Shown here in pieces: positions 29,895 to 59,071 of a stretch of DNA of 59,071 nucleotides (the first letter of the stretch is position 1; each line of letters starts with the position of its first letter). The stretch is from a virus. Position numbers and translations under genes: made by a program. Below the pieces are notes generated by a model, which worked only from the letters and a program-made list of their open reading frames with translations, was not told where the DNA came from and did no database searches. The stretch is taken from positions 1-59,071 of the IMG/VR virus record IMGVR_UViG_3300021961_000108. One strand, written 5' to 3'.

Positions 29895-29906
29895 TAGAGA
29901 TATAAT

Positions 29907-33289: not shown

Positions 33290-33847
33290 ATGAATCTGGC
33301 GCAAGAAATAGCTATACAGCCCCCACCATTTACAGATCATAACAATAAGTTAGTTCAGCCAAATCTCATAAAATTTAAAACCTTAAATGTATCATATATT
33401 GATAATCCATTATCAAAAAGCGTTTATGCTCAAATTCAACATATCCCGAATAGATTATTATTAGTTGATAAAAATGAGTATGATATTTGGGGAGACTATA
33501 CTCAAGAACAAATAGAAAATCGTTTACTAGAAAAATTAGGAGATGATATTGGTAAAACTCTTAGATCATTATTTCCTAAAACACTAGAAGAATATCCTAA
33601 TGGTCCAGGTACTATTTTGGCTAACATGATTTCGTCTTTAGGCATAAAGAGCAACCCCACCTGTTCCTGCAAAAAACATGCAATAGAAATGAATGAAAAT
33701 GGAGTTGAATGGTGTGAAAATAATATGGAAACAATTATTGCATGGTTAGCGGAAGAAAGTAAGAAACGAAAAATTCCTTTTGTAAAATCTTTGGCTACGA
33801 TGGTTGTTAAAAGAGCAATTAGACGTTCAAAACAATTACAATCATAA
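33290..33847 (+). CDS. Conserved phage protein with CxC-H motif (paralog B)
   Basis: 185 residues, paralog of the gene at 5703. Conserved parts: IQPPPFTDH near the start, LRSLFPKTLEEYPNGPGTIL, CSCKKHAIEMNENGVEWCE (C-x-C, H and the later Cys kept), and the C-terminal helix pair ESKKRKIPFVKSLA with a basic end. TAGGAG lies before the ATG. A second copy outside the packaging cluster, next to a second BppU-like gene, suggests that a whole fiber-base module was duplicated. Its stop codon is part of a 16-base perfect palindrome. Confidence 0.6.
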   Translation: MNLAQEIAIQPPPFTDHNNKLVQPNLIKFKTLNVSYIDNPLSKSVYAQIQHIPNRLLLVDKNEYDIWGDYTQEQIENRLLEKLGDDIGKTLRSLFPKTLEEYPNGPGTILANMISSLGIKSNPTCSCKKHAIEMNENGVEWCENNMETIIAWLAEESKKRKIPFVKSLATMVVKRAIRRSKQLQS

Positions 33848-33939: not shown

Positions 33940-34368
33940 ATGCCAGCAGCAGACTATAATTTTACCATTGAAAAGGGTACTAGTTTTTATATATCTTTTG
34001 ATTATAAGGATGATTCTGGTACTTCTATAAATCTTACTAATTGGTGTGCTAGATTACGCTGGTTAGATAGCAATAATACTACAAAAACATATACAACCAA
34101 TACTGTTAATTCAGAATATCAATTTAATATTGATCCTTTAATTGGCCGTATAATTTTGCGTTTTCCAGCAACCACAACGGCTGCTTTTACTTTTTCAACT
34201 GCTAACTACGATTTAGAATTACAAGAGCCAAACGATCTATATGATGGTGGTGGCAAAAAGGTTTTTAGAATATTAAAAGGAACTATAACATTAGTTACAA
34301 GAAATGTTCCCGGAGACGACGCATTTATCTGTAACTATGATCCACAGGACCCATGCAATACATGCTAA
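33940..34368 (+). CDS. BppU-like baseplate/fiber-base protein (paralog B)
   Basis: 142 residues, clearly paralogous to the gene at 14201: (P/S)AA(D/N)YNF(T/S)IE(K/R)GTSF, (Y)KDDSGTSINLTNWCAR, then G(R/K)IILRFP, YDLELQEP and RILKGTITLV. It differs in a C-terminal Cys pair (CNYDPQDPCNTC) that could bind a metal or form a disulfide. As in the first copy, it immediately precedes a fiber gene. Expected role: adaptor at the base of the giant fiber. Confidence 0.6.
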   Translation: MPAADYNFTIEKGTSFYISFDYKDDSGTSINLTNWCARLRWLDSNNTTKTYTTNTVNSEYQFNIDPLIGRIILRFPATTTAAFTFSTANYDLELQEPNDLYDGGGKKVFRILKGTITLVTRNVPGDDAFICNYDPQDPCNTC

Positions 34369-34374
34369 TATCAA

Positions 34375-37300
34375 ATGACTATAATAAATATTTTAGAAGA
34401 CTCTAATAACCCCACAAAATATCTTATAGTTACTAGTCAAGATGGCACTAGTGAAACACTAGTAACAACAAATGTTCTAGTTACTACCAGTTCTAATAAT
34501 AGGGCTGAGCTTATAGAGATTACTAAAATTCCAGGACCAAAAGGAGATAAAGGAGATATTGGTCCGGTTGGTCCAGCGGGACAAAATGGAGTAGTTTTTG
34601 ATATACTACCTATTAATAGTGGTGGTACTAATAACTCATCTTTTATTACGGATAAAGTAATATATTATGATGGGACTAAATTATCTAGTTCAGATCTAGA
34701 TATAAATAGTATTCAAACAAATATTATTAGTAATATTTATTCTGGTACAGGACTATCCAAGGTCCAAAGTGGAGATACTGTTACTCTTAATGCTAATCTT
34801 GGAGATGGATTAACAATTGTTGGCGAAAATCAAATAGGCATAGATACTAATATTGTTATTACAAAAAGTACATTGGATCTATCTGATACAAGTTTTTATC
34901 AAGGTATTTTACCCATAAACTATGGCGGCACCAATAATACTTTTTTTGGATTAAACTCTTTAGTATACTATGATGGAAGTAAATTAGCAACCTATCCCAT
35001 TCCCACCGGACAAATTGTTCATAGTGGTCAAAAAATTAGTGTTGTTGCCGGATCTGGGCTGGTCGGTGGTGGAGATATTACTCTACCAAATGGATCGGTT
35101 GTGATAAAGCTACAAAATTCAGATGATATTATTGTTTTTGATGATCATATAGAATTATCTAATATTATTTCTAGTGGAACTTATACTAAAGTATATGTAA
35201 ATAATAAAGGCAGAGTAATTGGCGGAACTAATCTGACTCTAAGTGATATTATTGCGGCTGTTGGAGGTACTCCATGGACTTCAGCAAATGATGGAGATGG
35301 TTCAGGATTAGATGCTGATTTATTGGATGGACAACAGTCGTCATATTACAGAGACGCTAGTAATATTACTGGAGTATTATCGACCAACCTTTTACCTGAT
35401 ATAGTTACTGCTGGCACAGCTTCTAAGGTACAATTTAATGCAAAGGGACTAATAGTTGATTCTGGAGTTTTACAATATCTAGATATTACAGATGCTTTAG
35501 GATATGTCCCTTTCGATAAAGGTGGTGGACAAATACTAAATGATGTAGAAATATTAGGAAATATTACCGCCGAAAGCGGTTTTTTTACAGATAATAGTAT
35601 AACACTAGGACAACCATATAATACAAATGACATAAGAGGAATACGATTCAGATACAACGATGTTCCTGCAAAATATGCTGTTTTAGCGTACTATCCAGCA
35701 GAAAATATTTTTCGTATATCTTCAGAAAGTCCTGGTACTAGCGGCGTTGTATTAACTCTTGAAAGAGCAGATAGTAAATATGTTGCTGTAACTGGCGAAC
35801 AACAAATTAGTGGTATAAAAACATTTTTAAATAGTATTCAATTATATGCCAGACTAATTGTACGTAATCCCACACCAGAGTTACCTCCATTTGATATAGG
35901 ATCTAACGATAAATTAGTACAATTCTTAAATTCTGATCTTTTAGACGATCAACATGGATGGTACTACAGAAATGCCATTAATTTAACAGGAACTTTGAAT
36001 TCTGATGTTATCATTCCGCATATTCAAAGTCGTGCAACGGTTTCATATTCAAATATTAACTCTCCAGATGATGGTTATTTGGAATACTTCCCAATTTTCC
36101 ATAGACCATCCTCCGGACATCCTATGGTATTAAGATCTAGTTATGTATATCAGACAGGATATAATATCCATATGGATGATGCTAGTTTGTCTATCGGACA
36201 AAATACTTTGGATGATAATATTACAAATTCTTTGGTGATCGGAACATCAAACAGCGGTAGTGCTCTTGCTCAAAATAGTTTAGCAGTTGGGTATGAAAAT
36301 ACTATTTCTGGAACAAATTCTTTAGCATTAAATTATAGAAGCTCTGCGGGTAAAAACAATAGCATAGCACTTGGTAAATACGGAGAAACCTGGGTTGATG
36401 ATCAAATATCAATAGGTGGATTCAAAAATTTCAATGTTGGTCAAGATGGTATCGCTCGTAAAGATTCTCATGGTCAATTATCTTATATACCATTAAAGTA
36501 TCATGGAGAGGCTGCCGGATATGTAAATATTTTAACGTTTACTTTACCAGAAAACAAAACTCTAGAGTATGAAGCAGAGCTGCTGTTCACGAAACAAAAA
36601 AATACTGGCGTAGCATCTTTTCAGATTACACCAGGAATAGTAAAAAATTATGGCTATAGGGATCCGGCCAGGGGTTATGCTGCATATAAAAAAGCTACAA
36701 TGGCAACTCACCATACCATAAAAGAGATATATAATAATTCTCAAGAAAGAACGTATGGATTATCTGTTAACTTAGTAACTGATCATGATGATATTTCAAG
36801 AACAAATAACTTAGAAGTAACAGCAGCTCCTTATCAATATCAAAGTCTTGATATCCAATCTTATGCTAATCCTGTAGTAATTTATCCTAAATCCGATTTT
36901 AGTACAAAGTTAAAAGCCACTAGAGATTCATCTGATCTGGGGTCAACATATAGAAAAAACTTTGTTGTTAAATTAGAACCATACGATAGGTCTCCTTTTA
37001 ATACTGGCGCACCAATAACTCTTGGCAGAAATATTAATCATATAACAGAATGTTTATATTATAGGCCATCAGGATCAAAAAATGGTATTATAAAATTTCC
37101 TAATCATGGATTAAGCAATCAATGTCCGTTTGATTCTTCTATATATATTGGTACAGGTAATATTAAATTATTAGCTAGAACAGATCAAATATTCGATTTT
37201 GGTATGCCCAAAGTTCGTAATACTGGATTATATACAAAGTCATTTTTTAGAGAAAATACTACTGGTAATCTGATTTACAGAACATATATTGATAAAAATA

Positions 37301-40300
37301 TTTATGGAACTATTAGCGGCACAGTATCATTTGACATTTATAAGACAAGTGGAACAACATACGAAGGCAATCTTATTTCTCCAGTCTTACCAACAGGAAC
37401 TACACAATGGAATGATAATTTTCCAGGATCCCATTCCGTTTATGCTACAACTTTATCATTTAATTTTCAAACAACTGGAATAAATTTATCAAATAATAAC
37501 TGGTCTGAATTATATAGTGAAAACAAAGCGCTATCTATTATTAAAAATAATAGTAGTGATTGGAATACATATGGTTTAAGTAATAGTATTAGCGGATATG
37601 TTAATTCCTATCTTGGATTGATAGAGTTTAATTTAAATACTAGTCTCCCTTTATCCGGACCAAATATTTATTTGTATACCAACCCACCATTTCCAGAAGG
37701 AGATGGACAAAATGTATATTTTAATCCGGATTACTATATTGATGATACCAATGCTACCATAAATATTTTACCATATTCTTATATACAATATCTATACGAT
37801 AATTTTTCTTATATAGATCTTAATACTATAGGATTTACTCAAAAACAATTATGTTATATTAATAATAATGATATGATCTTATTATCATATCCAACAACAT
37901 CAAAATATAGAGTAAATTCTAGTGTTACGCCATCCATAGATAATTTATATTTAGAAAAAAATGATACTATATTTATTAATGATACGTTAGATAATATTGC
38001 TAATATTTATATAGATAATAGTGGTCAAAAACATTATACTCTCACAAATTCGTATTCTGCTGGAACAGGATATGTTTATTTAGCAAGTTCAATCTCTGGT
38101 TTGGGTATTTCTTCTAGCAAATCATTCAATAATACAACTGGAACATATACATATAGTAGAAGTTCTAACTCTGATTATAGTACTATTTTACATGCAACTA
38201 CTTATGCTCCATTAACATCAGCCCCGATCATTGGATGTGTTCCTAATGAGCCCCCACACTATAGTCCAACGTGCTTGTATATTGTACCAACAGGACACGA
38301 ATTTATATTTACTCTTAATAGTGGAATTATTCCTAGTGGATCAGACTATGCCGATAATCTTGCATGGACATCATTTAATAGCAACTCTTTGATTGCTACA
38401 TCGTCTGTTATTTTACCACTTGGTCAAGATAGTATTAATTTACCACCTTTATTAATTCCAGAAGCTAGTATATATAGTAGTGGAATTAATGCTGTAAGAT
38501 GTAATGCCTCGATATTTGATTTTCGTTTAGATAATTTAAGATTGTCTAATACATACTACAATATATGGTATAGTGGATATAGTTCAGAAGCTAATACTGG
38601 TACTAATTCTATATATAATAATTTACCTGCTATTTTAGTTAGTGGAGATGTTAATCGATTCTATTTGGCAGTTACTGGAACCGGCGACTGCACTTTTGCT
38701 TATAAGGTATTAACAACTTTAGATAGTAATAATCAAAATTATATATCTAATACTTTTAGATCTCAAATTAATAATACTATCCCTACTATAGATAATATTG
38801 GAAACAAAATTATAAGGTGTTCTGACTGGGGATTATTGTCTAATCCTAATTGGTATGGTTCGGTAGATGTTAGTAATATTTCAGATTTAGATTTTAGTGT
38901 ATCATTACCACTATCATTAAACAATGATTTTATTAAAATTTTATCTACCAATACCTCTTCCACTGGTGTTTCTATTATCGGTTCTGGCACAGGATATCTA
39001 TCACCAGCCGATACTGGATTATGGACATCTTATGGTTTATCAGGGTTAAATAATATTTATGGGGATATTATATTATATCTAAAAGCTAGAGATAATTATA
39101 AGTATACTAATTTTAGTGGAATATTAAGTACTGGAATACCCAGCGATAATACAATCTATAGCAGAGGACTATTAGTTACAGAAATATATCCAGAAATTGT
39201 TTGTAATATATACTCATCAAATGGACAAAATACAGGGGTTTATTCTGTATCATTATCTAATAAGCAGGATTATCATACATTAACAGTTACTTGTCCTAGC
39301 TATCTAGATTATTTTAGAATACTATCATCCAATAAAACTCTAGATATTCATAATAATTTAAATATATCTTTTAATCTATTAGATAACAGTAATAGTGGTA
39401 TTGTATCTGGTATATTTTTACCCAATACTCAAAGAAATAAATATATAGTAAATAAACCATATAGTAAAATGTACAATGTTAGTAATGACACTTTTACTGT
39501 TGCTGTATTAAGTGGATATATGCCATCTGGTCTTCCAAATTCTGGACCAGTTATTCTTAATATTCCAAAAATATATGATCTTTTACATACTAGTCAGATT
39601 CCGTCCTATCATACAGAATCTCGTGGATCTTTTGATTTTAGATCTACCAGTAGTATTCTATCTAATGGATTATATACAATTGAAAGTTTTGATGAATATA
39701 GTATGTATTTATATGATTTTGCTAGAGTATTTGTTACCGGCTCTGACTATGGAACAGGAACTCTACAATACAATAATATTGGTTATAATATTACAGATGA
39801 TAAATTTAGTTTATGGGGTAAAAATTTTGCTGGAGACACTATTCTACATCCTTGGAGAGATGTACCAACATTTATATCCGATATTGCTGGATCGTGCGAA
39901 TCTGGTCGTTTATGTATTAGATTTTCTGGAATACCCAACTATTTTCAACTGAATGATAGTTTTTGGGTTGATGTAATACCTAATATTTATCCTCAATCTA
40001 CTAATTTAGTATATGCTAATGGATATTATGTAACAGGATTAAGTGGAGTCAATGATTCTACAATTTATATAAAGTGTCCTAGTGGAGTTCATTCTGGTAT
40101 AGTTCTTGGTATGAATACTTTTGATGCGTTTAATTATGTTCCGCTTAATTCATATATTACCACTTTTATAAGTGGAGAAGTTATTAGATTGAATAATAAT
40201 AATATTGGAGTACCACCAGTTTTCTACAATAATGTCCATGCTGGAACACTAAATAATCCATACTTATTTAGTTTTAGTAGAGAAACTATTGCTCAAAATA

Positions 40301-43300
40301 CTGAAAGTAATAATTTAAGAGAAGCTTGGAGAAATTTTATATCGGGTAGTTACACAATCTATAAAGATGAGGTTGCTCCAACAGTAGTTAGTATATTAAC
40401 CAGAATTCCACCATTTTATTATGATGCTTCTCATCAATATTATTCTGCTTGGAACACAACTCAAGCAACTAGAGGCGTTAATGTTTGGAGAAATACTGGT
40501 TCGACCGGAATATCAATGATGATTACCGGCACACAAAATATTCAAACAGACAAAAATCCTAATTATGGATATAGATTTGTTAGTACAACACCGTCATTTA
40601 GTTTTGAACCAAGTATAACAGGATACAGCTTATCAGGTAATACCATACATTCTACTCGAAGCGGTAATTTTAGATTTGCTCTTGATGATCTTAATAAGTA
40701 TTTATCTGTTAGCTCTAATAGTGGATTATATAGACCAACAGCTGGTTCTGGAAGATTAAGCTCTACTGTTGTATTTCCAGCAGCTGCTGATTGGACTATT
40801 AATAGCAGTAAAAGTGAAACCGTAAATATAATAGCTACAGATATAGATAATTTTAAATTATTAGGCGTTGATCTTATTAATCATAATAATATACAAACCT
40901 CATTAATTAGTTCTGGTAATTATAATTATATTGCTAGTGGATTAGCTCAAAATAGTGGTATTACTTTACGTTTTGGCTTGTGTGGCGGCGCAGGAGTGGC
41001 TGACCATAGACCAGAAATACAAGTATATGGATTAGAATCTAGTTATTCTTATTCTTCTAAGCACATTTATGGCATTCCTACTGGTAATCAAGGACTACTA
41101 AATTATAGTGAACAAATTAGTCCATATTCAAATATATGGTATATAGATCTATATATTAATGAGTTAAATAATATATCTTCTTTTTCATACTTATTTAAAG
41201 ACATATTATCATCAAGAGTTAGTGGAACAATATTAAATATTAGTGGATTGCCACCAAGTCCTTATATTAACAATTTTACAACTACAACATATTCTAATGG
41301 AACTAATCCATGGGTAGTATCATTTGATATTGAAAATGTTAGTAGTGGAACAAGCATAGGAATAAGCGGAGGCAGTGGAAATAATGTACTAATAATTAGT
41401 AGTGGACTAGCTTATAATACTTATTTATCTAAATGGCAAGCTTATGCTCTTGGTTCTACTCCATCAACTAATACAGTGTATAATACTGTTCCATTGGCTA
41501 TAACTGGTGCAATTACAATTCCATATACAGGAAATATTAAAGTAACTGGTACCAATGCCTCATATGCGCCACGCATTACAAATGTAGTAGATACGGTAAA
41601 ATTTAGAAATACTGGACTTGATCCGATTACATTATATTTTAATTACCAAAAAGAAGTTGGAGAGACTACAAATCCAACTATTCAATTAACAAATTATCCA
41701 ACAGGAGCAACAGTAAATTCCGTAAAGATCAACGACCCCGAACTTTCTGCACTAAATCAAGCGACAAATAAAGAATTATGGAGAATTACTATTAGCAACA
41801 TTGGAGTTACTGGCTATACATTAAATGGTATGGTTTCATTATCTCCATATACAGATAATTTTTCTACTAATATAATATCTTACGATCCATTTGTAATAGA
41901 TGCTGTTCTTGTTCCTGATCCCATAACTTTTGCTGGCCGAAATTGGCAAATTAACATATCTACTCTTGGTGGCGGAGGACCTTCTTATTTACCATATATT
42001 CAATTATTTAATGCTCCATCTATGTATGGTACTGGTACTACGGCGTACGATTACAATGTTGGTGGATGGGACATATCATTAACTGGAAACTTAGATACTT
42101 TGAATAGATATAATATGGTGACAGGACTATATAATATCAATTTATATATTCAAGATATTATTAGTTCAGTTCCAACCACAACCACTATGACATATAAATG
42201 TCCAGCAAATATTTTTGATCTTAGAAAATGGTATGCAGTAAAAGATAAATCATATCCTATAAATCTAGAAATACCTAATTGCTGTCGTTCAGAATACAAC
42301 ACTCTCTCAAACAATTTCACTATAAATCCTGATCTGCCAACTTCGGAAACATTATCATATAAAAAATATAATCCATTTACTAATACATATGAATTACGAT
42401 ATACCGGAGATCCTCCTATCGAAAAGTGGAATACAAGATTAGAGATATCTAATATAGGTAGTGAATATAGTTATGATGATCCAAACTCTAATACTTTTAC
42501 TATTGATGTCAAAGGTTTAGATACAGATGTTATTAGTGTTATTGGTTTATTAAAAATGAAAGAATTAGAGGTTATTAGTACTGATTATCCTCCATTAGAA
42601 ATTATTAATGTTAATCCTGAAGAAGATAAAACTAAAGAGTTAATACAAGGAACAGATTGGACACTTAGTTTTAGTGTTGTAGGAGGACTATCTAACCTTA
42701 ACTATCCTCCAACAATACTATTGAGTGGACTTCCGTCAGTATGTAGTGGTTATTTTCCAGATATTGATCCTGATGGTCCTCCATGCTTATCTAGTTATAG
42801 TTTTAATAATACAACCCTAAGATGGTCATTTAATTTTACTGGATCAAGTAATTGTAACACAGGATTATATAATATCAGCATAAAAGCTTTTGATTCTACT
42901 GGAGAAGATACTGCTTTTACAAATATACTATATACTCCATTGGGTATTCCTGGACCAAAAGTACAGTCAGCATTTCAAACTAATTCATTATTTCCTAACT
43001 GTTTGCCATTTTCTGGAGATATTAAGATTATTTCTCCAGAAAGAGGATTACCATGTCCATATACCACAGGTATTAAAGGATGGGAATTGATAGGATCATT
43101 ACCTAATGGATTAGCACTAGTTTCTAATAATATTGTTGGCTTACATCCTAGTTTATATACTGGCACAGGAACTATCTCCATAACCGGTACAGCAACAGCA
43201 TTTCCAGAAAATAATGTTTTCCCTCCATTTATTATAAGAGCAACAGGATTAAACGATAAGACAGCGCAAGCAACGGTAACTATGAATACCGCAGGAGTTA

Positions 43301-45294
43301 CTCCGATTGATGACAATCCATTATCTTTGACTATTTATTTCCCTTATTCTGGATATATTAGTCCAACATACAAACAAAATGTTAATGATACTCCTCATGT
43401 TAAATCAGAAAGTCAGCATGTTTATAAGCCATATCCAAGTACTGGAGCAATGATTTGTAGAAGTACTTTGTCAGAAAATAATTGTCCAACTTACTATACT
43501 GGCACATATACATTAATGACTCCAACTGGTAGCGGAGTCAATATATCTTTTGGCAGATCACCTATTAGTTCTTCAAACGTATTTGCTGTATTTGATAATA
43601 ATTTAACTAATAATAAAAATGGTATATATCAATTATTCGATATTACAAATCAAGAATTTTTTGATAATATTACACAACAATTATATTATGAATATTATGG
43701 TAAGCTATCTACATTATGCAATCCAGCACCAACTTTATTCTCCGGCTTAACTCCAGAATCGGGCTTTATTAAGCTTATGCCATTTGAAGTAACATCTATG
43801 AATGTCCCAGCCAGTCTGGATCTCGGAGGATTACCAAAAGGAACTATAGGATGTAATACATGTCTTCTTGGAAATGGAGAATTACAACAAAATGAGGGAG
43901 CAACACTTAAATTAATTGGTAAAATGAGACCATCAATGGCTTTTAGTATTACAGGTAATTCTTACCCCCTACAAAATTATGATAGTAATAATTCGTGTTC
44001 TGCTGGTGGATTTGGTTTTAGTATTCCCAATCTTACTTTGGTAAGTGGTGTTGAAACACAATTGTTACCAGGTTTTCCTTCTGGAGAACAAGAAGAAATT
44101 TGCTTTACTAATTGTTATGAAACTGGAGTTGCATATATTAGTGGTGTCGTTGTACCAACACCCATTTTAGAAATTACAGATGCTCCAGTTCCTCCCTACA
44201 TTTATAACGGTCAGTCAAATTCATTTGCATTAAGGTGCTCTTTTGGAGATACCACTGTTAAGAGAAATAGAAAAGAAAACTATAGAGAATTAGAAATCAA
44301 ATATTATATTAAACATTTAAATAGCGGATTATATTGGGATAATACAAACTCATTATTCACAGCAACAAAAACATTTATAAGCAAAAATACAACAGCAGAT
44401 CCTGCTAGTCCACAATCAATAGGATATACGGCTCCAATTATCAGCAGTGGTGCAATATATGAATTATTTATGGAAAGAAAAGCTGATGATTTTCCGACTG
44501 TAAATATTAACTCGTATCCATATATTAGTAATTCTATTTATTGGATTCATAGGGCTAATGATGATTCCACCCCAGCTGTATCTAGCACATATCCTGGATT
44601 CATGCCAATAAATTATGGCAGTGGATTAATTATACAAACAGGAGTTCCGTTCTATATTGCTGCACAAATTCTTGGTGGTAGTGGTTCATATCAACCTTCT
44701 ATATCTGGCTATCTAACATTAGCAAATCAGACAGGTGAAGTATTAGATATTAATGGCTTATCACATAATTTAGCAACAAGTATTAGTGGTTCTAATATAA
44801 CAGATGGCTTATGGAATATTCAAATTACTGGAAATATTACTGGACTATTTAATTCGTATCTTGTTGATTATGATCTTAGAATGGGTATTACAGAAAATAT
44901 ATTGGCCCCATTCCCCAAATCAACCACGAACATTATTCCTGTTACACTGGTTAAGCCGTTAGAACTAACTATTACTAGTGCTGGTGGCACAACATTGTCT
45001 GTAAATATTGGTACACAATGGGTGCTTTCGTTTAATATATCTGGAGGAAATAGACCACCAAGATATCATACTAATACTAGCCAGTGGGCTATTGATAATG
45101 AGCCGATTATAGAAATTAATGGAGATATTTGTAACTATACTATACAAAATAAAATATATAATGTCAATAATAATACTTGGTCATTTACATTGAGATCCAC
45201 AGCAATTATAAATAGCAATACTGTGTTAAACCTAGTTTATATTGATAAATTACAATACTCTATATCTGAAACAATAAACGTTCAAGTGGTATAA
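34375..45294 (+). CDS. Giant adhesin / fiber protein, 3,639 aa
   Basis: 10.9 kb, the largest complete gene here. Order of parts: a short base (1-50), six collagen-like G-x-y triplets (GPKGDKGDIGPVGPAGQNG, about 54-72), two copies of a GGTNN-x(8)-YYDG(T/S)KL module (85-205), DLLDGQ/DDQH..YYR motifs like fiber 1, and a YadA-head-like segment (NSLAVGYENTISGTNSLALNY, about 618-672). Then come about 2,900 residues of Ig-like/beta-sandwich modules separated by Y, N, S, G and T-rich linkers, many starting W-x(5)-SF/SG and containing G-x-Y-x-I/L. There is no signal peptide, membrane anchor or S74 chaperone. The start has no clear ribosome site and lies 6 bases after the previous stop, so it is probably coupled. 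Confidence 0.75.
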   Translation: MTIINILEDSNNPTKYLIVTSQDGTSETLVTTNVLVTTSSNNRAELIEITKIPGPKGDKGDIGPVGPAGQNGVVFDILPINSGGTNNSSFITDKVIYYDGTKLSSSDLDINSIQTNIISNIYSGTGLSKVQSGDTVTLNANLGDGLTIVGENQIGIDTNIVITKSTLDLSDTSFYQGILPINYGGTNNTFFGLNSLVYYDGSKLATYPIPTGQIVHSGQKISVVAGSGLVGGGDITLPNGSVVIKLQNSDDIIVFDDHIELSNIISSGTYTKVYVNNKGRVIGGTNLTLSDIIAAVGGTPWTSANDGDGSGLDADLLDGQQSSYYRDASNITGVLSTNLLPDIVTAGTASKVQFNAKGLIVDSGVLQYLDITDALGYVPFDKGGGQILNDVEILGNITAESGFFTDNSITLGQPYNTNDIRGIRFRYNDVPAKYAVLAYYPAENIFRISSESPGTSGVVLTLERADSKYVAVTGEQQISGIKTFLNSIQLYARLIVRNPTPELPPFDIGSNDKLVQFLNSDLLDDQHGWYYRNAINLTGTLNSDVIIPHIQSRATVSYSNINSPDDGYLEYFPIFHRPSSGHPMVLRSSYVYQTGYNIHMDDASLSIGQNTLDDNITNSLVIGTSNSGSALAQNSLAVGYENTISGTNSLALNYRSSAGKNNSIALGKYGETWVDDQISIGGFKNFNVGQDGIARKDSHGQLSYIPLKYHGEAAGYVNILTFTLPENKTLEYEAELLFTKQKNTGVASFQITPGIVKNYGYRDPARGYAAYKKATMATHHTIKEIYNNSQERTYGLSVNLVTDHDDISRTNNLEVTAAPYQYQSLDIQSYANPVVIYPKSDFSTKLKATRDSSDLGSTYRKNFVVKLEPYDRSPFNTGAPITLGRNINHITECLYYRPSGSKNGIIKFPNHGLSNQCPFDSSIYIGTGNIKLLARTDQIFDFGMPKVRNTGLYTKSFFRENTTGNLIYRTYIDKNIYGTISGTVSFDIYKTSGTTYEGNLISPVLPTGTTQWNDNFPGSHSVYATTLSFNFQTTGINLSNNNWSELYSENKALSIIKNNSSDWNTYGLSNSISGYVNSYLGLIEFNLNTSLPLSGPNIYLYTNPPFPEGDGQNVYFNPDYYIDDTNATINILPYSYIQYLYDNFSYIDLNTIGFTQKQLCYINNNDMILLSYPTTSKYRVNSSVTPSIDNLYLEKNDTIFINDTLDNIANIYIDNSGQKHYTLTNSYSAGTGYVYLASSISGLGISSSKSFNNTTGTYTYSRSSNSDYSTILHATTYAPLTSAPIIGCVPNEPPHYSPTCLYIVPTGHEFIFTLNSGIIPSGSDYADNLAWTSFNSNSLIATSSVILPLGQDSINLPPLLIPEASIYSSGINAVRCNASIFDFRLDNLRLSNTYYNIWYSGYSSEANTGTNSIYNNLPAILVSGDVNRFYLAVTGTGDCTFAYKVLTTLDSNNQNYISNTFRSQINNTIPTIDNIGNKIIRCSDWGLLSNPNWYGSVDVSNISDLDFSVSLPLSLNNDFIKILSTNTSSTGVSIIGSGTGYLSPADTGLWTSYGLSGLNNIYGDIILYLKARDNYKYTNFSGILSTGIPSDNTIYSRGLLVTEIYPEIVCNIYSSNGQNTGVYSVSLSNKQDYHTLTVTCPSYLDYFRILSSNKTLDIHNNLNISFNLLDNSNSGIVSGIFLPNTQRNKYIVNKPYSKMYNVSNDTFTVAVLSGYMPSGLPNSGPVILNIPKIYDLLHTSQIPSYHTESRGSFDFRSTSSILSNGLYTIESFDEYSMYLYDFARVFVTGSDYGTGTLQYNNIGYNITDDKFSLWGKNFAGDTILHPWRDVPTFISDIAGSCESGRLCIRFSGIPNYFQLNDSFWVDVIPNIYPQSTNLVYANGYYVTGLSGVNDSTIYIKCPSGVHSGIVLGMNTFDAFNYVPLNSYITTFISGEVIRLNNNNIGVPPVFYNNVHAGTLNNPYLFSFSRETIAQNTESNNLREAWRNFISGSYTIYKDEVAPTVVSILTRIPPFYYDASHQYYSAWNTTQATRGVNVWRNTGSTGISMMITGTQNIQTDKNPNYGYRFVSTTPSFSFEPSITGYSLSGNTIHSTRSGNFRFALDDLNKYLSVSSNSGLYRPTAGSGRLSSTVVFPAAADWTINSSKSETVNIIATDIDNFKLLGVDLINHNNIQTSLISSGNYNYIASGLAQNSGITLRFGLCGGAGVADHRPEIQVYGLESSYSYSSKHIYGIPTGNQGLLNYSEQISPYSNIWYIDLYINELNNISSFSYLFKDILSSRVSGTILNISGLPPSPYINNFTTTTYSNGTNPWVVSFDIENVSSGTSIGISGGSGNNVLIISSGLAYNTYLSKWQAYALGSTPSTNTVYNTVPLAITGAITIPYTGNIKVTGTNASYAPRITNVVDTVKFRNTGLDPITLYFNYQKEVGETTNPTIQLTNYPTGATVNSVKINDPELSALNQATNKELWRITISNIGVTGYTLNGMVSLSPYTDNFSTNIISYDPFVIDAVLVPDPITFAGRNWQINISTLGGGGPSYLPYIQLFNAPSMYGTGTTAYDYNVGGWDISLTGNLDTLNRYNMVTGLYNINLYIQDIISSVPTTTTMTYKCPANIFDLRKWYAVKDKSYPINLEIPNCCRSEYNTLSNNFTINPDLPTSETLSYKKYNPFTNTYELRYTGDPPIEKWNTRLEISNIGSEYSYDDPNSNTFTIDVKGLDTDVISVIGLLKMKELEVISTDYPPLEIINVNPEEDKTKELIQGTDWTLSFSVVGGLSNLNYPPTILLSGLPSVCSGYFPDIDPDGPPCLSSYSFNNTTLRWSFNFTGSSNCNTGLYNISIKAFDSTGEDTAFTNILYTPLGIPGPKVQSAFQTNSLFPNCLPFSGDIKIISPERGLPCPYTTGIKGWELIGSLPNGLALVSNNIVGLHPSLYTGTGTISITGTATAFPENNVFPPFIIRATGLNDKTAQATVTMNTAGVTPIDDNPLSLTIYFPYSGYISPTYKQNVNDTPHVKSESQHVYKPYPSTGAMICRSTLSENNCPTYYTGTYTLMTPTGSGVNISFGRSPISSSNVFAVFDNNLTNNKNGIYQLFDITNQEFFDNITQQLYYEYYGKLSTLCNPAPTLFSGLTPESGFIKLMPFEVTSMNVPASLDLGGLPKGTIGCNTCLLGNGELQQNEGATLKLIGKMRPSMAFSITGNSYPLQNYDSNNSCSAGGFGFSIPNLTLVSGVETQLLPGFPSGEQEEICFTNCYETGVAYISGVVVPTPILEITDAPVPPYIYNGQSNSFALRCSFGDTTVKRNRKENYRELEIKYYIKHLNSGLYWDNTNSLFTATKTFISKNTTADPASPQSIGYTAPIISSGAIYELFMERKADDFPTVNINSYPYISNSIYWIHRANDDSTPAVSSTYPGFMPINYGSGLIIQTGVPFYIAAQILGGSGSYQPSISGYLTLANQTGEVLDINGLSHNLATSISGSNITDGLWNIQITGNITGLFNSYLVDYDLRMGITENILAPFPKSTTNIIPVTLVKPLELTITSAGGTTLSVNIGTQWVLSFNISGGNRPPRYHTNTSQWAIDNEPIIEINGDICNYTIQNKIYNVNNNTWSFTLRSTAIINSNTVLNLVYIDKLQYSISETINVQVV

Positions 45295-51696: not shown

Positions 51697-51999
51697 ATGA
51701 ATCATAATATTATAATGGACTTGTTGGAAAAGAGAATGACCACTATAATGATAGGAGCACTTGCTAGATTCGAAGAAAACTTTGATTATTTGTGGGACAA
51801 AGACAAAGCTAATGCTGATTACTTTTTCTCTTTATGGCAAAAGGCCAGACAAGAAATTTTGGATTACGGGAATAATCAAATAAGATTAGCGGAAAAGGAT
51901 TTGGAAAAGTTACAAATAAATAAACCTACTAAATATAAATATCAATATAGATTTGATATGAGGAGAAATGAAAATGAGCGCAAAGACAAAGACTTTTAA
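51697..51999 (+). CDS. Small tail assembly protein, 100 aa
   Basis: 100 residues, helical (MNHNIIMDLLEKRMTTIMIGALARFEENF), with Lys/Arg-rich ending RKDKDF. It begins 3 bases after the previous stop with AAGGAAA upstream and overlaps the next gene by 26 bases. Proteins with this opening are frequent in tail cassettes directly before the tape measure, but no detailed role is known. Confidence 0.55.
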   Translation: MNHNIIMDLLEKRMTTIMIGALARFEENFDYLWDKDKANADYFFSLWQKARQEILDYGNNQIRLAEKDLEKLQINKPTKYKYQYRFDMRRNENERKDKDF

Positions 52000-52852
52000 G
52001 ACAGAAGTTGATGGAAAAGAAGTTGAATTCTTAGTACGAACACCGTCATTAGCAGAACAACGAGAAGGACAAAAGGTATATAATCAGTCCTTTAGCGATG
52101 CGGTAAAAGCTAAAGCTATCGTTAGGGCGCGCATGGATGACTTGCTAGAAGAACAAGGCTTGTGGGATGCTACAAAACAAAAGAAGCTCACCGATCTGCA
52201 ACAGGTTATATTGGATAACGAAAGAATTCTTGCAAAGGGTGGTATTCCATTAAAAAAGGCTAAAGAATTAGCTTTAGAGATGAAAGAAACTCGTGTTAAG
52301 ATACGAGAGCTTATTGCCGATAAAACATCACTAGATAATCATAGTGCAGAAGGGCAGGCCGATAATGCCCGATTCAACTATCTAGTAAGTGTGTGTTTGG
52401 TGTATAATGAAACTAAACAACCATATTTTAAGAGTTTGGAAGATTATTTATCACGATCAAATGAGCCAGTTTCTATTTTAGCAGCACAGAATTTGGCTAA
52501 TATGCTATATGGTCTTGATAATGATTATGAGAAAAATTTACCAGAAAATAAGTTCTTGAAAAAATTTAAGTTTATTGATGATGGTTTAAGACTAATAGAT
52601 GAAAAAGGACGATTAGTTGATGCGGACGGAAGACTGGTGGATGAGAATGGTAGGTATATTAATGAAGCCGGTGAATTTATTGATAGATACGGTAATAGAG
52701 TAGACGACAAGGGAGATTATATAGTTGATCACCAACCATTCCTTGACGATGATGGAAACCCCATCTCGGAAGAAAAAAATGAAGCCCCACCAGTATCACT
52801 ATCAGAAAGCAAGCCACAAACTGTTGAAGAACAAGTCGAGACCACTGTTTGA
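51974..52852 (+). CDS. Tail protein with 8-residue G-repeats, 292 aa
   Basis: 292 residues. AGGAG 8 bases upstream supports ATG 51974 over 51968. N-terminal half: beta strands then long helices (KTKTFKTEVDGKEVEFLVRT; DLLEEQGLWDATKQKKLTDL). Residues about 195-258 carry repeats of an 8-residue unit, x-(I/L/V/F)-(D/N)-x-x-G-x-x (DEKGRLVDADGRLVDENGRY...), likely a chain of beta-hairpins. It ends in an acidic Pro/Glu tail. It lies directly before the terminator and the tape measure, so it belongs to the tail cassette. Confidence 0.55.
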   Translation: MSAKTKTFKTEVDGKEVEFLVRTPSLAEQREGQKVYNQSFSDAVKAKAIVRARMDDLLEEQGLWDATKQKKLTDLQQVILDNERILAKGGIPLKKAKELALEMKETRVKIRELIADKTSLDNHSAEGQADNARFNYLVSVCLVYNETKQPYFKSLEDYLSRSNEPVSILAAQNLANMLYGLDNDYEKNLPENKFLKKFKFIDDGLRLIDEKGRLVDADGRLVDENGRYINEAGEFIDRYGNRVDDKGDYIVDHQPFLDDDGNPISEEKNEAPPVSLSESKPQTVEEQVETTV

Positions 52853-52940: not shown

Positions 52941-55900
52941 ATGGCAGCATTCAATCTTACTGCACAACTTAATTTGGTTGGACCAACAAATGTTAGACAA
53001 ATTGTTGGAGATATTAGAAAACAATTAGGCACAATAAAGGGTAATATTGATCTTGGTATTGATCCTAAAGCTATAAGAGCTATTGCTCAATTACAAAGTC
53101 AAGCATCTCAAATAAGTTCATCTTTAAATAATGTTTCTAGATCAGCATCAGTAGCTAGTGGCTCTATTAACGACCTTAATAATGCTGCTAGTAAAAATCA
53201 ACTAGGATCAGTTGCTCAATCAGCAGCTAAAGCAGCAAGTGCTGCTAGTGATTTGGGTAAAGAAAGTTCACGATCATCAAAAGATGTTAAAGTTTTAAGT
53301 AACGAATTGGCTGAGTTCGGTAGACAAAGTGGTTTGGCTATTCGTCGTTTTGCCGCGTTTAGTTTAGTATCAGGCGTAATGTATAAGTTGAATAGTGCTA
53401 TTAATCAAGCATTATCACAATATATAGACTTTGATAGAGAATTAGTTAGAGTATCACAAGTTACTGGTAAAAGTGTTGCCGAGTTAGGGAGTTTAGTTAA
53501 TGAAATTAGTTCGTTAGCAACTAGTACCGGTGTTGCTTCAAAAGAATTAATTCAAGTATCAAGTACATTAGCACAGGCTGGTTTAAGTGCTAGAGATGCT
53601 GAGAAAGCATTAAAAGCATTGGCTCTGAGTGCTAATGCTCCATCATTTGATAATTTAAATGATACTGTGGAAGGCAGTATCGCACTCATGAGACAGTTTG
53701 GTATTAGTGCGGATGATCTAGAAAGTGCATTAGGTAGTGTTAATGCTGTGGCAGCTGCATTTGCTGTTGAAGCCAGCGACTTAATTGCTGCTATTCAACG
53801 TACTGGTGGTGTGTTTGCAAGTGCTAGTAGAGGAGTTAGTGAAGGTACTGACGCATTAAATGAATTTATAGCTGTATTTACAAGTGTTCGTGCTACAACT
53901 CGTGAAAGCGCTGAAACTATTGCTACTGGCTTAAGAACAATTTTTACCAGAATTCAGAGAGAATCTACTATTACTGCTCTTAGAGAGTTGGGTGTTGAAT
54001 TGCGCGATGTTGAAGGAAAATTCGTTGGGCCTTATGAGGCTGTTAGAAGACTTAGCGAAGGATTAGGACAATTAGATCCAAGATCTCAAACATTTGCTTC
54101 TATTGTTGAAGAACTTGGTGGTTTCCGACAAATTGGTAAAGTTATTCCTCTTATTCAACAATTTGCTACAGCGGAAGCAGCACTACAAGTTGCTATGAAA
54201 GGTGGAGATTCACTAGCAGAGGCTAATAGACAAGCTCAACAAGCATTAGCCGTACAATTAGCAAAAACTAGAGAAGAATTTGTTGCATTAGTTAGAGATT
54301 TTGCTAATAATACTGCTTTTAGAAGCTTTCTAACAACAACTATTGGTATAACCAAAAGTATACTAAGTTTAGCACGAGCAGGACGATCATTATTTCCACT
54401 ATTAACACTAATGGGAGGATTTAAAGCATTTTCTGCTGTGACTCAGTTTGCTGGCGGCTTTGCTCAAGGAGTAAGACCGTCTGGAGGCAGAGGAGGCGGC
54501 GGAGACGAAGAAGGCATAGATAATAAGGCTCTATCTAGAACTATGGGAAGAAGTGTATCTCGTAGTATTGGTAAGGGTTTGGGAGAAATGTTGAGTGGTT
54601 CAAAAACTGAAAGACAAGCAGAATCATTAGAGCAAATCGTTAGTATATTAAGAAGTAATGCACAAGCTTTTAATACTGATGTTAGTAGTTTATCTCAACC
54701 AATAACATCATTGTCTTCTTTATTAAATGATAATAATTCATTGTTATCTGCTAATACTAGCGGATTAAATAATGTATATGCTGCTTTAGTTAATTTAGAA
54801 GCAGCTATTAGTAGCAAAAGTTTTACTGGTCCAACCACTGCTAGAGGTGGTGGAAGAATACTGGGTTTCTCGAAAGGTGGAACTGTTCCTGGTAGTGGCA
54901 AAGGAGATAAAGTTCCGGCATTATTAGAACCCGGCGAAGTTGTAATGAGCAATAACGCTGTTAATAGATATGGAAGAGGTAATTTGGTAAGAATGAATAA
55001 GTATGCTACAGGTGGCAAGATACAAAAACGACTTAGTGATTTAGATCTTAATTTAAGCAAAGAAGTTTCTGGTATAGATTTAGCACAAACAGATATTAAA
55101 CTTAAAGAAATACAATTATTTCCAAATGATTTTGCTGAAATGCAAAAAACAATTATGGAAACCAAAAAAGAAACAACAAAAATTATAGAAAAATACCCAG
55201 GAAAAGAAACCGAACAATTTACTAAAAAATATAGAGGTGGTCAATGGTTGCTAGGAAAAGCCTTTCAGGAAATTGTTGAAAAAAAATATAATCTTAAAGG
55301 AGTAAGGCCATCTGGATTTGGAACATCCACAGAAAACTTTGATGATATCTTACAGGAACATTTTGCTCCATTGGATTATACAACAGGAGATGCAAAATTT
55401 GTTAAAAATCTAAATAGTATAACAAATGAAGAAATATTAAGTAAAAGATTGAGATATGAGTTTAAAGAGAATAAATTACGTCCAGATCCAAGTACAAAAA
55501 TAGAATCGTTTAATTTACCTGATACATCATTATACTATCCAGCAAAAGGCATTAAAGAAAGATTTGAAAGATATATTCAATCAACAGGAGAGTCTTCTAA
55601 AATTTTAGGAGGATATTTTAATCTTGGTGGATTAGTTCAAAGATTTATGGCCGGAGGAGAAGCTGAAGAAACAACACCTTGGGGAGATACGGCTACTGTA
55701 CCAGAAATTCTAAGACTTTTAACCTTTGATGGAGCTGCTAAGATCGGTAGAGTAGCAAATCCTAGAGAACTACTTAAAAGGAAAAAACCAACAGAAGATG
55801 AAAAAGCTAAGATAAAAGCTATCAGAGATGAAGCAACAAAAACATATAATAGAAGAATAGGAGCGGCCAAAGGAGTACAAACTAGATTAACTGGACAAGG

Positions 55901-58900
55901 ACTAAAATTTGCTGCGGTAGGAATGTTTGGAGATACTTTTCCAGACGAAACATATGATGCTGAAGGAACTAAAGGAACAAGAAAAGTATTGATCACAGCA
56001 GCATTGATGGACAGAGCATTAGCAGAACAACTAGATGCTGATTTTGGAGGTGGTATAGAATCAACAGCCCAACAAGCTGCTGAAAAAGTTATGGTTGGTA
56101 ATATTACTAAAGGGTTATTAGGAGGTAAACAAGCAGAATTTGATTTTGATAGAACATTAGCAGTTGGTGCTGATGATATAGCTAGCTTGAAAGATTTTAG
56201 AGATCCTGCTATTGTTCAAGAAAAATTAAAAAATGCAAGTTTAACAAGATTAGGTAGAGCACTAGTAGATTTAGTTAAAGCTCATCCAGAAATACTTCCT
56301 AATATGAGGATAGTAACAGCACGATCTCAGTCCACAGTACCACTAGTCCAAAGATGGCTAGCAGACAAAGGACTAGGATTGTCTGATTCTCAATTTGTGG
56401 GAGTTGGCGGCGATTCTCAAATAGTTTCCGAAAGCGATATTCCGGCATTAAAAGCTGCTCAATTAAGAGCAGGATCATTATTTGTTGATGATAGCGGCCC
56501 GAATATTAGAGCTGCTGAAGCTAGTGGTAAAAACATAGAAACATATCAGTATGGGGCGCAATTAACTACCCCTAATCCTGTTTTAGAGTCTAGTGTTAAG
56601 GGTATATTTTTTGAAAAAATGATACAAAATCTTGGAGGCCCCGGAGCAATTGCCGGACTAGGATTTGATTATCCCAAAGGTTTAGGACCTGCTGCTAAAT
56701 ATTTTGGTATTGATCCTGATATTCCTACTGATGCTAAAAGAACCATAGTTGGCGCAGGAACTATTAAAGATAATGTTAGAACTTATCTTAAAGCAATGGG
56801 ATATGCTGGTGGTGGAATGATTATGGGCAAAGGAAGAGGAAAGAAAGGGGCAAAGGGAGCCAGAGATGTTATAGAGCCTATTAGTAGTGAAACATATTTA
56901 AAATGGGCTCAGGGCATATATGATGAATATGATAAAGATCCTTCGTTAGTAATGACTACTGATGAACTCGGAATAAGAATGCCCCCAGAAATAGCATTAG
57001 CTAATAAACTATTAACACAACATGCGTTACAAACTGGAGGAGCAGGATTAAGCGTTGGGACAAGATTTGTTACAACACCGGAACAATATATAGACGACGC
57101 ATTAAGACCTTATCTTGTGCCAAATCCTAATAATCCTAATGAATTAGGTTTTTATGAAGATGTTATTGCTAAGTTTGGTAGGGCTAAAGCAGTATCAGCG
57201 GCAGCAACAAAAAAACTTGGTAAAGCAGAAGCATTGAAAGCTGTTGAAGCTAGAATGGAAACGTACACTGGTGCCGAAAATGCAATTACTGAATTTAAAA
57301 AGAGTGGAGTTCTAAATGTTAGTTCATCAATAATGGACTATATAATTAAATCAGTAAATAATCCTGATAATTTACCATTAGATAGTAAAGGTATCAATAG
57401 CATAAAGAAAAAATTAACAAAAAGTAATGTTGATGCTTTTAATGCTTTAGTTGGATCCCAAAAAACTCCTGTTAGTGTACAGGGCCAAAGAACAAAATTA
57501 GGAGAAGTTTTTAATGCTATATTAGAAACTTATGGTAGTGATGTATCTGATTTAGAAGTTGATAATATAACTAGAGCTATGGGAGAAAAATTAAATATTG
57601 GTGGACTAGTACAAAAGTTTGCTTTTGGTGGAAAAGCAGATGGTCCAGGATTTGAAGAAGTTCGAAAACAAATAATGGATAAATATCCAGAGGTTGATTT
57701 TAGAATTAGTAAGCGCAAAAAAGGAAGAGGTTTTGGATATAATTTATTAGGAGCTTTAAAAACAGATGGTGGATTATTAGGATCGAAAGGACTACAATTT
57801 GAACAGCCAAGTAATCTACAAAAACTAATTGAAGTTTCTGATAAAATGGCAACAAGCTTGATAAATCCACAAGAACTAGCGGTTGGTGGATTAGCAGATG
57901 CTACATCAGAAATGGCAAGTTTGATGGGTGGTCTTTATGGTAATAGAAAATCATCAGAAGCAGTCCCGGCTAAAAAACAAAAAGATTTTGGTAGAATAGG
58001 ATTAAATGAAGATGGTAATTTGATTAGTGCTGGTTATTACAAGAATGATCAAAGATCAGGATACGTTCAAGCTTATAAGATGAAAGATAATTTATATTAT
58101 GTAGGATTATCTAAAGCTACTAGTGGTTATGGCCCAAGATTATACGATGTGGTAATGGAAGCTGTTAGTGAAAAAGGGGCTATGTTAACTTCTGATAGAG
58201 GTATGGTTAGCGCAGAAGCTCAAAAGGTATGGCAATATTATTTTAAGAATAGAGGAGATGTTAAGAAAACGCCGTTGGAACCAGAGAACTGGACAAAAAA
58301 TCAATCATTAATTGATCCTAAACTTTATGGACGCAAAGAAACTTGGCCTCCATCAACTGATCCTGCTTGGGTATTACAAAGTGGATATAGTAAAAGTCCA
58401 AGTTTAATTAATGATCCTAATGCAGTTGTTAGAGGAAATAAAAAATCAACAGTATCTTCTGGACAAATGGCTCTGCAGTATTTCCAAAGAGCAAATGGCG
58501 GCAGACTAGGTTTTGCTACTGGTGGAAGTGTTGATGAGAATATAAAAAAGATTTCGGCAATGAGAATGAGGGAGATCGATATTGGAATGAATCTTAGAAG
58601 ACAACTTCCAGCAATGTCTCAAGAAGAATGGCAAAAAGAATGGGAAAAAATAAGATCAGCTCCTGGAGGCTCTCGACAATTAGCAGAGGAATTATTTGGT
58701 TCAGAAGAGGCGGCGAATAGAATCATTACTGAACAAGCTTATGCCAGAGTAAAAAACCCTCATAAGAACGGTGGTTTAATTAACAGATTCGTTGATGGCG
58801 GAACTGTCCCAGCATTAGTTAGTAATGGGGAAGCTTATGTTCCGCCCAAACTAGCTAAAAAGATCGGTTACGGAACTCTTAGCAAGATGAATCAGGCTGA

Positions 58901-59071
58901 TAAGAATGGTATGGGGCGATTTAGTAGTGGTGGAATTAGCGTATTTAAAGGACCCGGTAGCGGGACTAGCGATAGCATACCAACAAGTTTACCAGTTGGT
59001 AGTTTTATACTGAGAGAAAAGGCTACTAAAGCATTAGGCTTAAATAAAGGAGGAATGGTACAAAGATTTGC
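52941..59071 (+). CDS. Tape measure protein with enzyme-like cargo segments (3' end outside window)
   Basis: At least 2,043 residues, open at the right edge; ATG 52941 with GGAAAA upstream. Residues 1-150: helical heptads. About 177-390: PhageMin_Tail/TP901 tape-measure domain (SLATSTGVASKELIQVSSTLAQAGLS...ATGLRTIFTRI). About 640-690: first Gly tag, GGTVPGSGKGD then VPALLEPGEVVM. Then a PD-(D/E)XK-like segment (E777, D801, GDAKF D817/K819), tag GGLVQRFMAGG (896), a HAD-like segment (FDFDRT D1068/D1070, VTAR T1126, VDDSG D1183), a second PD-(D/E)XK-like segment (E1225, D1243, TDAK D1264/K1266), tag GGGMIMG (1290), an unknown helical part, tag GGLVQKFAFGG (1554), an acetyltransferase-like segment (about 1690-1780) and tags at 1853, 1944 and 2037. 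Domain calls beyond the tape-measure part are inference. Confidence 0.75.
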   Translation, partial: MAAFNLTAQLNLVGPTNVRQIVGDIRKQLGTIKGNIDLGIDPKAIRAIAQLQSQASQISSSLNNVSRSASVASGSINDLNNAASKNQLGSVAQSAAKAASAASDLGKESSRSSKDVKVLSNELAEFGRQSGLAIRRFAAFSLVSGVMYKLNSAINQALSQYIDFDRELVRVSQVTGKSVAELGSLVNEISSLATSTGVASKELIQVSSTLAQAGLSARDAEKALKALALSANAPSFDNLNDTVEGSIALMRQFGISADDLESALGSVNAVAAAFAVEASDLIAAIQRTGGVFASASRGVSEGTDALNEFIAVFTSVRATTRESAETIATGLRTIFTRIQRESTITALRELGVELRDVEGKFVGPYEAVRRLSEGLGQLDPRSQTFASIVEELGGFRQIGKVIPLIQQFATAEAALQVAMKGGDSLAEANRQAQQALAVQLAKTREEFVALVRDFANNTAFRSFLTTTIGITKSILSLARAGRSLFPLLTLMGGFKAFSAVTQFAGGFAQGVRPSGGRGGGGDEEGIDNKALSRTMGRSVSRSIGKGLGEMLSGSKTERQAESLEQIVSILRSNAQAFNTDVSSLSQPITSLSSLLNDNNSLLSANTSGLNNVYAALVNLEAAISSKSFTGPTTARGGGRILGFSKGGTVPGSGKGDKVPALLEPGEVVMSNNAVNRYGRGNLVRMNKYATGGKIQKRLSDLDLNLSKEVSGIDLAQTDIKLKEIQLFPNDFAEMQKTIMETKKETTKIIEKYPGKETEQFTKKYRGGQWLLGKAFQEIVEKKYNLKGVRPSGFGTSTENFDDILQEHFAPLDYTTGDAKFVKNLNSITNEEILSKRLRYEFKENKLRPDPSTKIESFNLPDTSLYYPAKGIKERFERYIQSTGESSKILGGYFNLGGLVQRFMAGGEAEETTPWGDTATVPEILRLLTFDGAAKIGRVANPRELLKRKKPTEDEKAKIKAIRDEATKTYNRRIGAAKGVQTRLTGQGLKFAAVGMFGDTFPDETYDAEGTKGTRKVLITAALMDRALAEQLDADFGGGIESTAQQAAEKVMVGNITKGLLGGKQAEFDFDRTLAVGADDIASLKDFRDPAIVQEKLKNASLTRLGRALVDLVKAHPEILPNMRIVTARSQSTVPLVQRWLADKGLGLSDSQFVGVGGDSQIVSESDIPALKAAQLRAGSLFVDDSGPNIRAAEASGKNIETYQYGAQLTTPNPVLESSVKGIFFEKMIQNLGGPGAIAGLGFDYPKGLGPAAKYFGIDPDIPTDAKRTIVGAGTIKDNVRTYLKAMGYAGGGMIMGKGRGKKGAKGARDVIEPISSETYLKWAQGIYDEYDKDPSLVMTTDELGIRMPPEIALANKLLTQHALQTGGAGLSVGTRFVTTPEQYIDDALRPYLVPNPNNPNELGFYEDVIAKFGRAKAVSAAATKKLGKAEALKAVEARMETYTGAENAITEFKKSGVLNVSSSIMDYIIKSVNNPDNLPLDSKGINSIKKKLTKSNVDAFNALVGSQKTPVSVQGQRTKLGEVFNAILETYGSDVSDLEVDNITRAMGEKLNIGGLVQKFAFGGKADGPGFEEVRKQIMDKYPEVDFRISKRKKGRGFGYNLLGALKTDGGLLGSKGLQFEQPSNLQKLIEVSDKMATSLINPQELAVGGLADATSEMASLMGGLYGNRKSSEAVPAKKQKDFGRIGLNEDGNLISAGYYKNDQRSGYVQAYKMKDNLYYVGLSKATSGYGPRLYDVVMEAVSEKGAMLTSDRGMVSAEAQKVWQYYFKNRGDVKKTPLEPENWTKNQSLIDPKLYGRKETWPPSTDPAWVLQSGYSKSPSLINDPNAVVRGNKKSTVSSGQMALQYFQRANGGRLGFATGGSVDENIKKISAMRMREIDIGMNLRRQLPAMSQEEWQKEWEKIRSAPGGSRQLAEELFGSEEAANRIITEQAYARVKNPHKNGGLINRFVDGGTVPALVSNGEAYVPPKLAKKIGYGTLSKMNQADKNGMGRFSSGGISVFKGPGSGTSDSIPTSLPVGSFILREKATKALGLNKGGMVQRF

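Follow-up and report, generated by a model that had tools for sequence, protein, structure and literature searches.

Tape-measure proteins fill the tail tube of phages and leave it before the DNA, as described for gpH of phage lambda, which is expelled ahead of the DNA (PMC11101478). Some tape measures, such as those of mycobacteriophage TM4 and coliphage T5 (pb2), have an enzymatic part (PMC1796659, PMC10038345); the T5 and lambda proteins are cleaved, and the cut in T5 detaches a domain that has a metallopeptidase motif (PMC10038345). In a different setting, “polyvalent proteins” are single chains, encoded next to other virion genes, that combine a number of unrelated enzyme domains (PMC5512222). 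Here, we analyzed the last gene in a 59,071-base stretch of viral DNA (IMG/VR record IMGVR_UViG_3300021961_000108, positions 1–59,071; the whole stretch is referred to as the window), which encodes a tape measure whose conserved N-terminal part is followed by enzyme-like modules strung on short Gly-Gly tags. This protein is probably a tape measure with a built-in polyvalent effector array, the enzymes of which may reach the host when the tape leaves the tail.

Lysin-bearing tape measures (PMC1796659) are the nearest structural precedent. Those of the TM4 and T5 type carry a cell-wall hydrolase, whereas the window protein carries an exchangeable array of several intracellular-type enzymes and no lysin; Pfam and PHROG scans of the protein, and scans of its segments, detected no peptidoglycan hydrolase domain. 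The likeness to polyvalent proteins extends to overlapping kinds of domains (ADP-ribosyltransferase, acetyltransferase, nucleases, putative zincins, and nucleotide enzymes), and the word “tape” is absent from the main text of the study by Iyer et al. 2017 (PMC5512222). Judged by its sequence, the window protein resembles a polyvalent protein in the core traits, with multiple predicted enzyme domains in a virion-gene setting, and differs in that the tape measure serves as the carrier and has a bay at a fixed place and tags that recur. In MuF-type toxins, the carrier is a head protein and the toxin is C-terminal. These phage polymorphic toxins also link a virion protein to enzyme domains that vary (PMC5576092), whereas the carrier here is not of that kind, and no MuF match was obtained. 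We found no report of enzyme arrays of such a kind in tape measures in the open-licence literature and, as far as that literature goes, the idea of a tape measure that serves as an exchangeable effector magazine, with borders related to gpH, is undescribed. A survey of protein mosaicism, according to which tape measures may hold under-explored domain mosaicism, is compatible with the present observations (PMC10684548).

The initial annotation had recognized an ordinary PhageMin_Tail part at the front of the protein, and the domain match bears this out (PF10145, residues 188–393, E 2.7e-24). PHROG tape-measure families also match the N-terminal part of the open reading frame (ORF), with E values of 1e-15 to 1e-17. 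By these matches the protein belongs to the phage tape measures, with a predicted role in tail length, and terminase and tail-fibre genes lie upstream of it in the window. Position 54865, given earlier as the start of the feature, is residue 642 of the ORF and not its start, which is at 52941. The contig end cuts the gene, leaving the C-terminal part outside the window. The features of the protein are as follows.

52941..59069, + strand: tape-measure ORF, 2,043 residues, no stop before the contig end.
52941..54500, + strand: conserved N-terminal tape-measure part, residues 1–520, 54–59% identical to relatives.
53502..54119, + strand: PhageMin_Tail domain, residues 188–393, by domain match.
54849..55016, + strand: element 1 (tag GGRILGFSKGG plus GGTVPGSGKGDKVPALLEPGEVV...KYATGG), residues 637–692, left border of the bay, by element profile.
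55029..58760, + strand: cargo bay, residues 697–1940, between elements 1 and 2; no DNA match to the closest relative inside.
55083..55610, + strand: module 1, residues 715–890, PD-(D/E)xK-like by motif only (LDYxxGDAKF); 5 homologues.
55626..55658, + strand: tag GGLVQRFMAGG, residues 896–906, border of module 1 and the HAD part; pLDDT about 38 in the model.
55692..56024, + strand: helical module in front of HAD, residues 918–1028.
56130..56633, + strand: HAD phosphatase-like module, residues 1064–1231, by conserved motifs, model, and Foldseek.
56601..56789, + strand: module PDK (GxxxE..DFPxGLG..(D/E)xK), residues 1221–1283, the commonest cargo, nuclease-like by motif only.
56808..56828, + strand: degenerate tag GGGMIMG, residues 1290–1296, border of PDK and S3.
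56877..57590, + strand: helical module S3, residues 1313–1550, in 9 tape measures at varying positions.
57600..57632, + strand: tag GGLVQKFAFGG, residues 1554–1564, border of S3 and the GNAT part.
58011..58370, + strand: GNAT acetyltransferase-like module, residues 1691–1810, in 16 tape measures, by AlphaFold and Foldseek.
58497..58526, + strand: tag GGRLGFATGG, residues 1853–1862, after GNAT.
58770..58910, + strand: element 2 (tag GGLINRFVDGG plus TVPALVSNGEAYV...MNQ), residues 1944–1990, right border of the bay, 84–88% identical in relatives with different cargo.
58929..59069, + strand: third, weaker element (GPGSGTSDSIPTSLPVGSFIL) plus tag GGMVQRF, residues 1997–2043, cut by the contig end.

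The window protein holds two or more unrelated enzyme folds in one chain, HAD and GNAT, both predicted. Because a sequence search of PDB with the HAD and GNAT profiles gave no match, these modules were assigned through structure prediction (AlphaFold) and structure comparison (Foldseek). The HAD core was modelled with a predicted local distance difference test score (pLDDT) of up to 96, and its DxDxT motif, motif III lysine, and DD pair are invariant in all 28 divergent members. Its top Foldseek matches are mostly HAD phosphatases, including the 3′ phosphatase of T4 Pnkp (target TM-score 0.63), with E values of only about 1e-3 obtained from a model holding several segments. The GNAT module shows the expected order of strands and helices (pLDDT about 70–88), and its top matches are GNAT acetyltransferases, with probabilities up to 1.00 and E values of about 0.02–0.2. 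Separate enzyme folds between tags are thus predicted for HAD and GNAT, and on these two models we rejected one continuous helical tape, which the initial annotation had named as an outcome against its proposal. Segments of the protein gave no significant matches in Pfam, NCBIfam, or PADLOC. Homology between module 1 and PDK was considered and rejected on comparison.

Relatives were collected from IMG/VR. An initial scan with a long query and a scan with the HAD segment returned none, whereas the GNAT segment yielded ten contigs with tape measures of 4,648–6,196 residues. When the N-terminal alignment was used for scanning, 244 related stretches were confirmed; we kept 80 of them and added two short contigs of metagenome-assembled genomes, and dereplication left 62 tape measures for analysis, the longest of 6,196 residues. 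The same architecture occurs in dozens of contigs, which rules out an assembly chimera. In the downstream second half of one giant tape measure (L018), a weak EF-hand-like stretch was observed.

In nearly every relative, a first element stands at about residue 510–735 and a second at 742–2951. The 56 complete bays between them span 168–2,255 residues, with a median of 1,029. Although just eleven modules were modelled, 31 different module orders were counted in these bays. Among the 62 tape measures, PDK was found in 54, HAD in 28, an HExxH module in 17, a HIGH nucleotidyltransferase/kinase module in 17, GNAT in 16, SNase in 10, S3 in 9, module 1 in 6, and a second HE-motif module in 5. Their order is permuted: PDK stands ahead of HAD 3 times and behind it 26 times, and HExxH ahead of the nucleotidyltransferase 4 times and behind it 5 times. 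The SNase module matches thermonuclease structures (E 2e-7). In the nucleotidyltransferase module, Walker A and HIGH-type motifs are present and structural matches are weak, and the HExxH motif is invariant in its module, for which a search for the zincin fold gave no confirmation. ADP-ribosyltransferase domains were detected in eight otherwise uncovered segments of relatives (Pfam; best E 3.9e-10, over the cut-off), and one relative (L064) has an ART-PolyVal match at E 0.0016, below the Pfam cut-off. Depending on the module, catalytic residues are kept in 15–28 divergent members. The ratio of nonsynonymous to synonymous substitution rates (dN/dS) of modules is mostly 0–0.21; among close copies, dN is 0–0.036 against a dS of 0.1–0.37, and the modules are therefore under purifying selection.

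All seven tags of the initial annotation lie at the residues given (646, 896, 1290, 1554, 1853, 1944, and 2037). The regular spacing ascribed to them is not found, with intervals of 250, 394, 264, 299, 91, and 93 residues. A chance origin of the tags is ruled out by counts in shuffled sequences and neighboring ORFs: the pattern GG[LM][VI][QN][RK]F has four copies in the window protein and none in 20,000 shuffles, and the strict pattern has 165 copies in 61 related tape measures, compared with 0.75 in shuffles, and none in the 162,071 residues of 454 neighboring ORFs. Failure of the tag to recur in other tape measures had been named in advance as an outcome against the proposal; it is found throughout other, related ones, the linker form being GG-x-[VI]-x-[KR]-F-x-x-GG.

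The tags keep to the edges of modules. Of the 164 core tags, just one is located within a module, though 41% of the bay sequence belongs to modules (P 6e-36), and with a looser pattern 45 of 66 module junctions have a tag (4.7 expected); the module seeds were cut with the tags in view, which influences the edges but not the interiors. For several modules, the distance from the tag to the next module is nearly constant. Exchange follows the same borders. In the closest relative found (L026), the DNA is 75–83% identical through element 1 and again at element 2, whereas the bay between them shares no DNA match with that of the window and holds different cargo. Conversely, two phages with 58% identical N-termini share a bay block of 92–93% identity that starts at a tag. 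High-identity blocks end within 12 residues (≤12) of a tag in 37 of 71 cases, compared with 3.4 expected and a maximum of 11 in 2,000 random draws, an indicative figure derived from non-independent pairs. The shuffled modules and the breakpoints at tags uphold the idea of a modular system.

Tags 646 and 1944 open an element of about 50 residues, GG.VPG.G..DKVPALLEPGEVV...AV..YG.GNL..MN..A.GG, the tag at 1944 being the front of element 2. The earlier observation that VPAL..(P)GE and then A...G...L..MN follow two tags holds for these two, and a third, weaker copy stands at 1997. A profile of the element, built from 165 copies in the relatives, matches residues 732–785 of lambda gpH (FATGGFTGTGGKYEPAGIVHRGEFVFTKEATSRIGVGNLYRLMRGYATGG; E 7.5e-9 per sequence), and none of 2,000 shuffled gpH sequences was reported in the control; no curated lambda tape-measure C-terminal family was among the Pfam matches of the window protein. 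The whole length of the gpH segment can be aligned with the element at the bay borders. In lambda gpH it occurs once, near the C-terminus, whereas here several copies bracket the cargo and are repeated downstream, up to eight per protein, also beyond the bay. Among cultured phages, 151 records contain the element, in most cases within genes that carry a tape-measure annotation. Element 1 also occurs in cyanophage virion proteins; those of Kyanoviridae have the element, and some also have GGGLVQGFQGGG- or GGGLVQGFDEGG-type tags. Three cyanophage proteins of varying annotation that adjoin hub genes (L002:6678-8978, L003:3249-6101, and L005:14065-16389) all have the element, two of them with a tag. 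A recurring tape-measure motif, from lambda to cyanophages, is now assigned to one homologous element. The short tag is thus probably the front half of an element that is widespread in tape measures, lambda gpH included, and cannot be regarded as a special mark of cargo.

Most likely, the tag is a sequence retained for assembly or as a linker, which has turned into a tolerated recombination border. One possibility that we hold for somewhat unlikely is that tags and elements are candidate docking sites for a tail-assembly chaperone of the gpG/gpGT type, which would keep the giant tape soluble and coated with tube protein, the enzymes being tolerated passengers. Binding of gpG to several regions of gpH (PMC5009743), the recurrence of elements beyond the bay, and their occurrence in lambda and many other tape measures are consistent with such docking; it leaves the coincidence of breakpoints and module borders with tags unexplained, unless docking sites are the sole tolerated borders. 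The breakpoints at tags, the near-constant tag-to-module distances, and the low model confidence at tag 896 would also fit mere flexible Gly-flanked linkers whose conserved DNA makes recombination borders, with no protein partner and no cleavage. A sequence as specific as [VI]-x-[KR]-F-x-x-GG would hardly be kept across proteins of about 58% identity in that case, nor be shared with lambda gpH, and we regard this explanation, too, with some doubt.

The effector-array reading builds on what is shown above: the layout recurs, the modules are shuffled and are exchanged at tags, their active sites are conserved under purifying selection, and two of the folds are supported. Delivery into the host and the function of the tag are what we infer from them. 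In the proposed scheme, a conserved N-terminal tape-measure region is followed by an exchangeable bay bracketed by two gpH-type elements, with the window bay holding, in order, a nuclease-like module, a HAD phosphatase, a second nuclease-like module, a helical module, and GNAT, all predicted and strung on tag linkers. The bay would be carried in the tail tube as an extended chain and exit ahead of the DNA. Its small modules could then refold in the host envelope or cytoplasm, where nucleic acids and proteins of the host would be their early targets. The peptidase-like modules present in some relatives may separate them from one another beforehand. Candidate roles are nucleic-acid end processing (HAD and nuclease-like modules), modification of host proteins (GNAT and ADP-ribosyltransferase), and nucleotide or NAD metabolism.

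A more far-reaching version, a dedicated delivery platform, is tentative. The gpH-derived tag would be a conserved assembly or release signal, effector enzymes would be plugged into the fixed bay and injected first, and recombination at tags would keep renewing the set of combined enzymes as phages and host defences compete in an arms race. It is rather unlikely that the tags are processing sites at which a phage or host peptidase releases the modules. The cleavage of T5 and lambda tape measures (PMC10038345), the HExxH-type modules in many bays, and the view that polyvalent proteins are cut by their own zincins (PMC5512222) point that way, but a peptidase is missing from many bays, and also from as much of the window bay as was sequenced. 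HAD, GNAT, ADP-ribosyltransferase, and nucleotidyltransferase domains have intracellular substrates or cofactors. With this, and with no cell-wall hydrolase found in the window protein, it is improbable that the modules stay outside the cell, whether as enzymes of the virion or the cell surface or in a structural role, even though there are known cases of tape measures that carry cell-wall enzymes (PMC1796659, PMC7291167).

Several observations weigh against the effector-array reading. Folded domains would need threading or unfolding to pass a narrow tube. The nuclease assignments are a matter of motif likeness: neither module 1 nor PDK matched any known PD-(D/E)xK nuclease in PDB or by profile, Pfam did not support module 1 either, and the lysine of the third motif is sometimes threonine. 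The window protein, which the contig end cuts, shows no HExxH peptidase as far as it was sequenced. When 50,697 cultured-phage records were searched by tblastn for the bay modules, none matched. About a third of module junctions have no recognizable tag, so the earlier view of tags as borders between enzymes holds in part: tags are rare inside modules and exchange breakpoints fall at them, while not every border is marked.

If the effector-array reading is right, the tape measure, seen so far as a ruler with at most a lysin, would be an exchangeable effector magazine in many environmental phages, and its enzymes would reach the cell before any phage gene expression. The bays would then be a source of uncharacterized enzymes that are candidates for anti-defence roles, and their module borders would form a naturally compatible set.

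Further observations concern the neighboring genes. Directly upstream of the tape measure, two overlapping small ORFs (51697-51999 and 51968-52852, + strand) occupy the usual position of tail-assembly chaperones, for which they are candidates; towards the C-terminus of the second product, repeats of the GRxVD/GxYI type follow one another. A 3,639-residue protein (34375-45294, + strand) matches tail-fibre PHROGs over its N-terminal 800 residues. Two far-apart pairs of small paralogues (5703-6266 with 33290-33847, and 14201-14629 with 33940-34368, all + strand) suggest a segment duplication. Three tandem paralogues with MICGYANIYDLCSNKY-like beginnings lie at 27863-31025 (+ strand), two of them with Cys-rich C-termini. 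Within the tail region, two genes on the opposite strand (31022-33225, − strand) gave no PHROG match of note; by eye, one looks sulfotransferase-like and the other opens with a HAD-like DCFDT motif. Near the terminase gene, 3941-4978 (+ strand) is a nucleotide-sugar epimerase gene (PHROG 540, E 1.5e-66).

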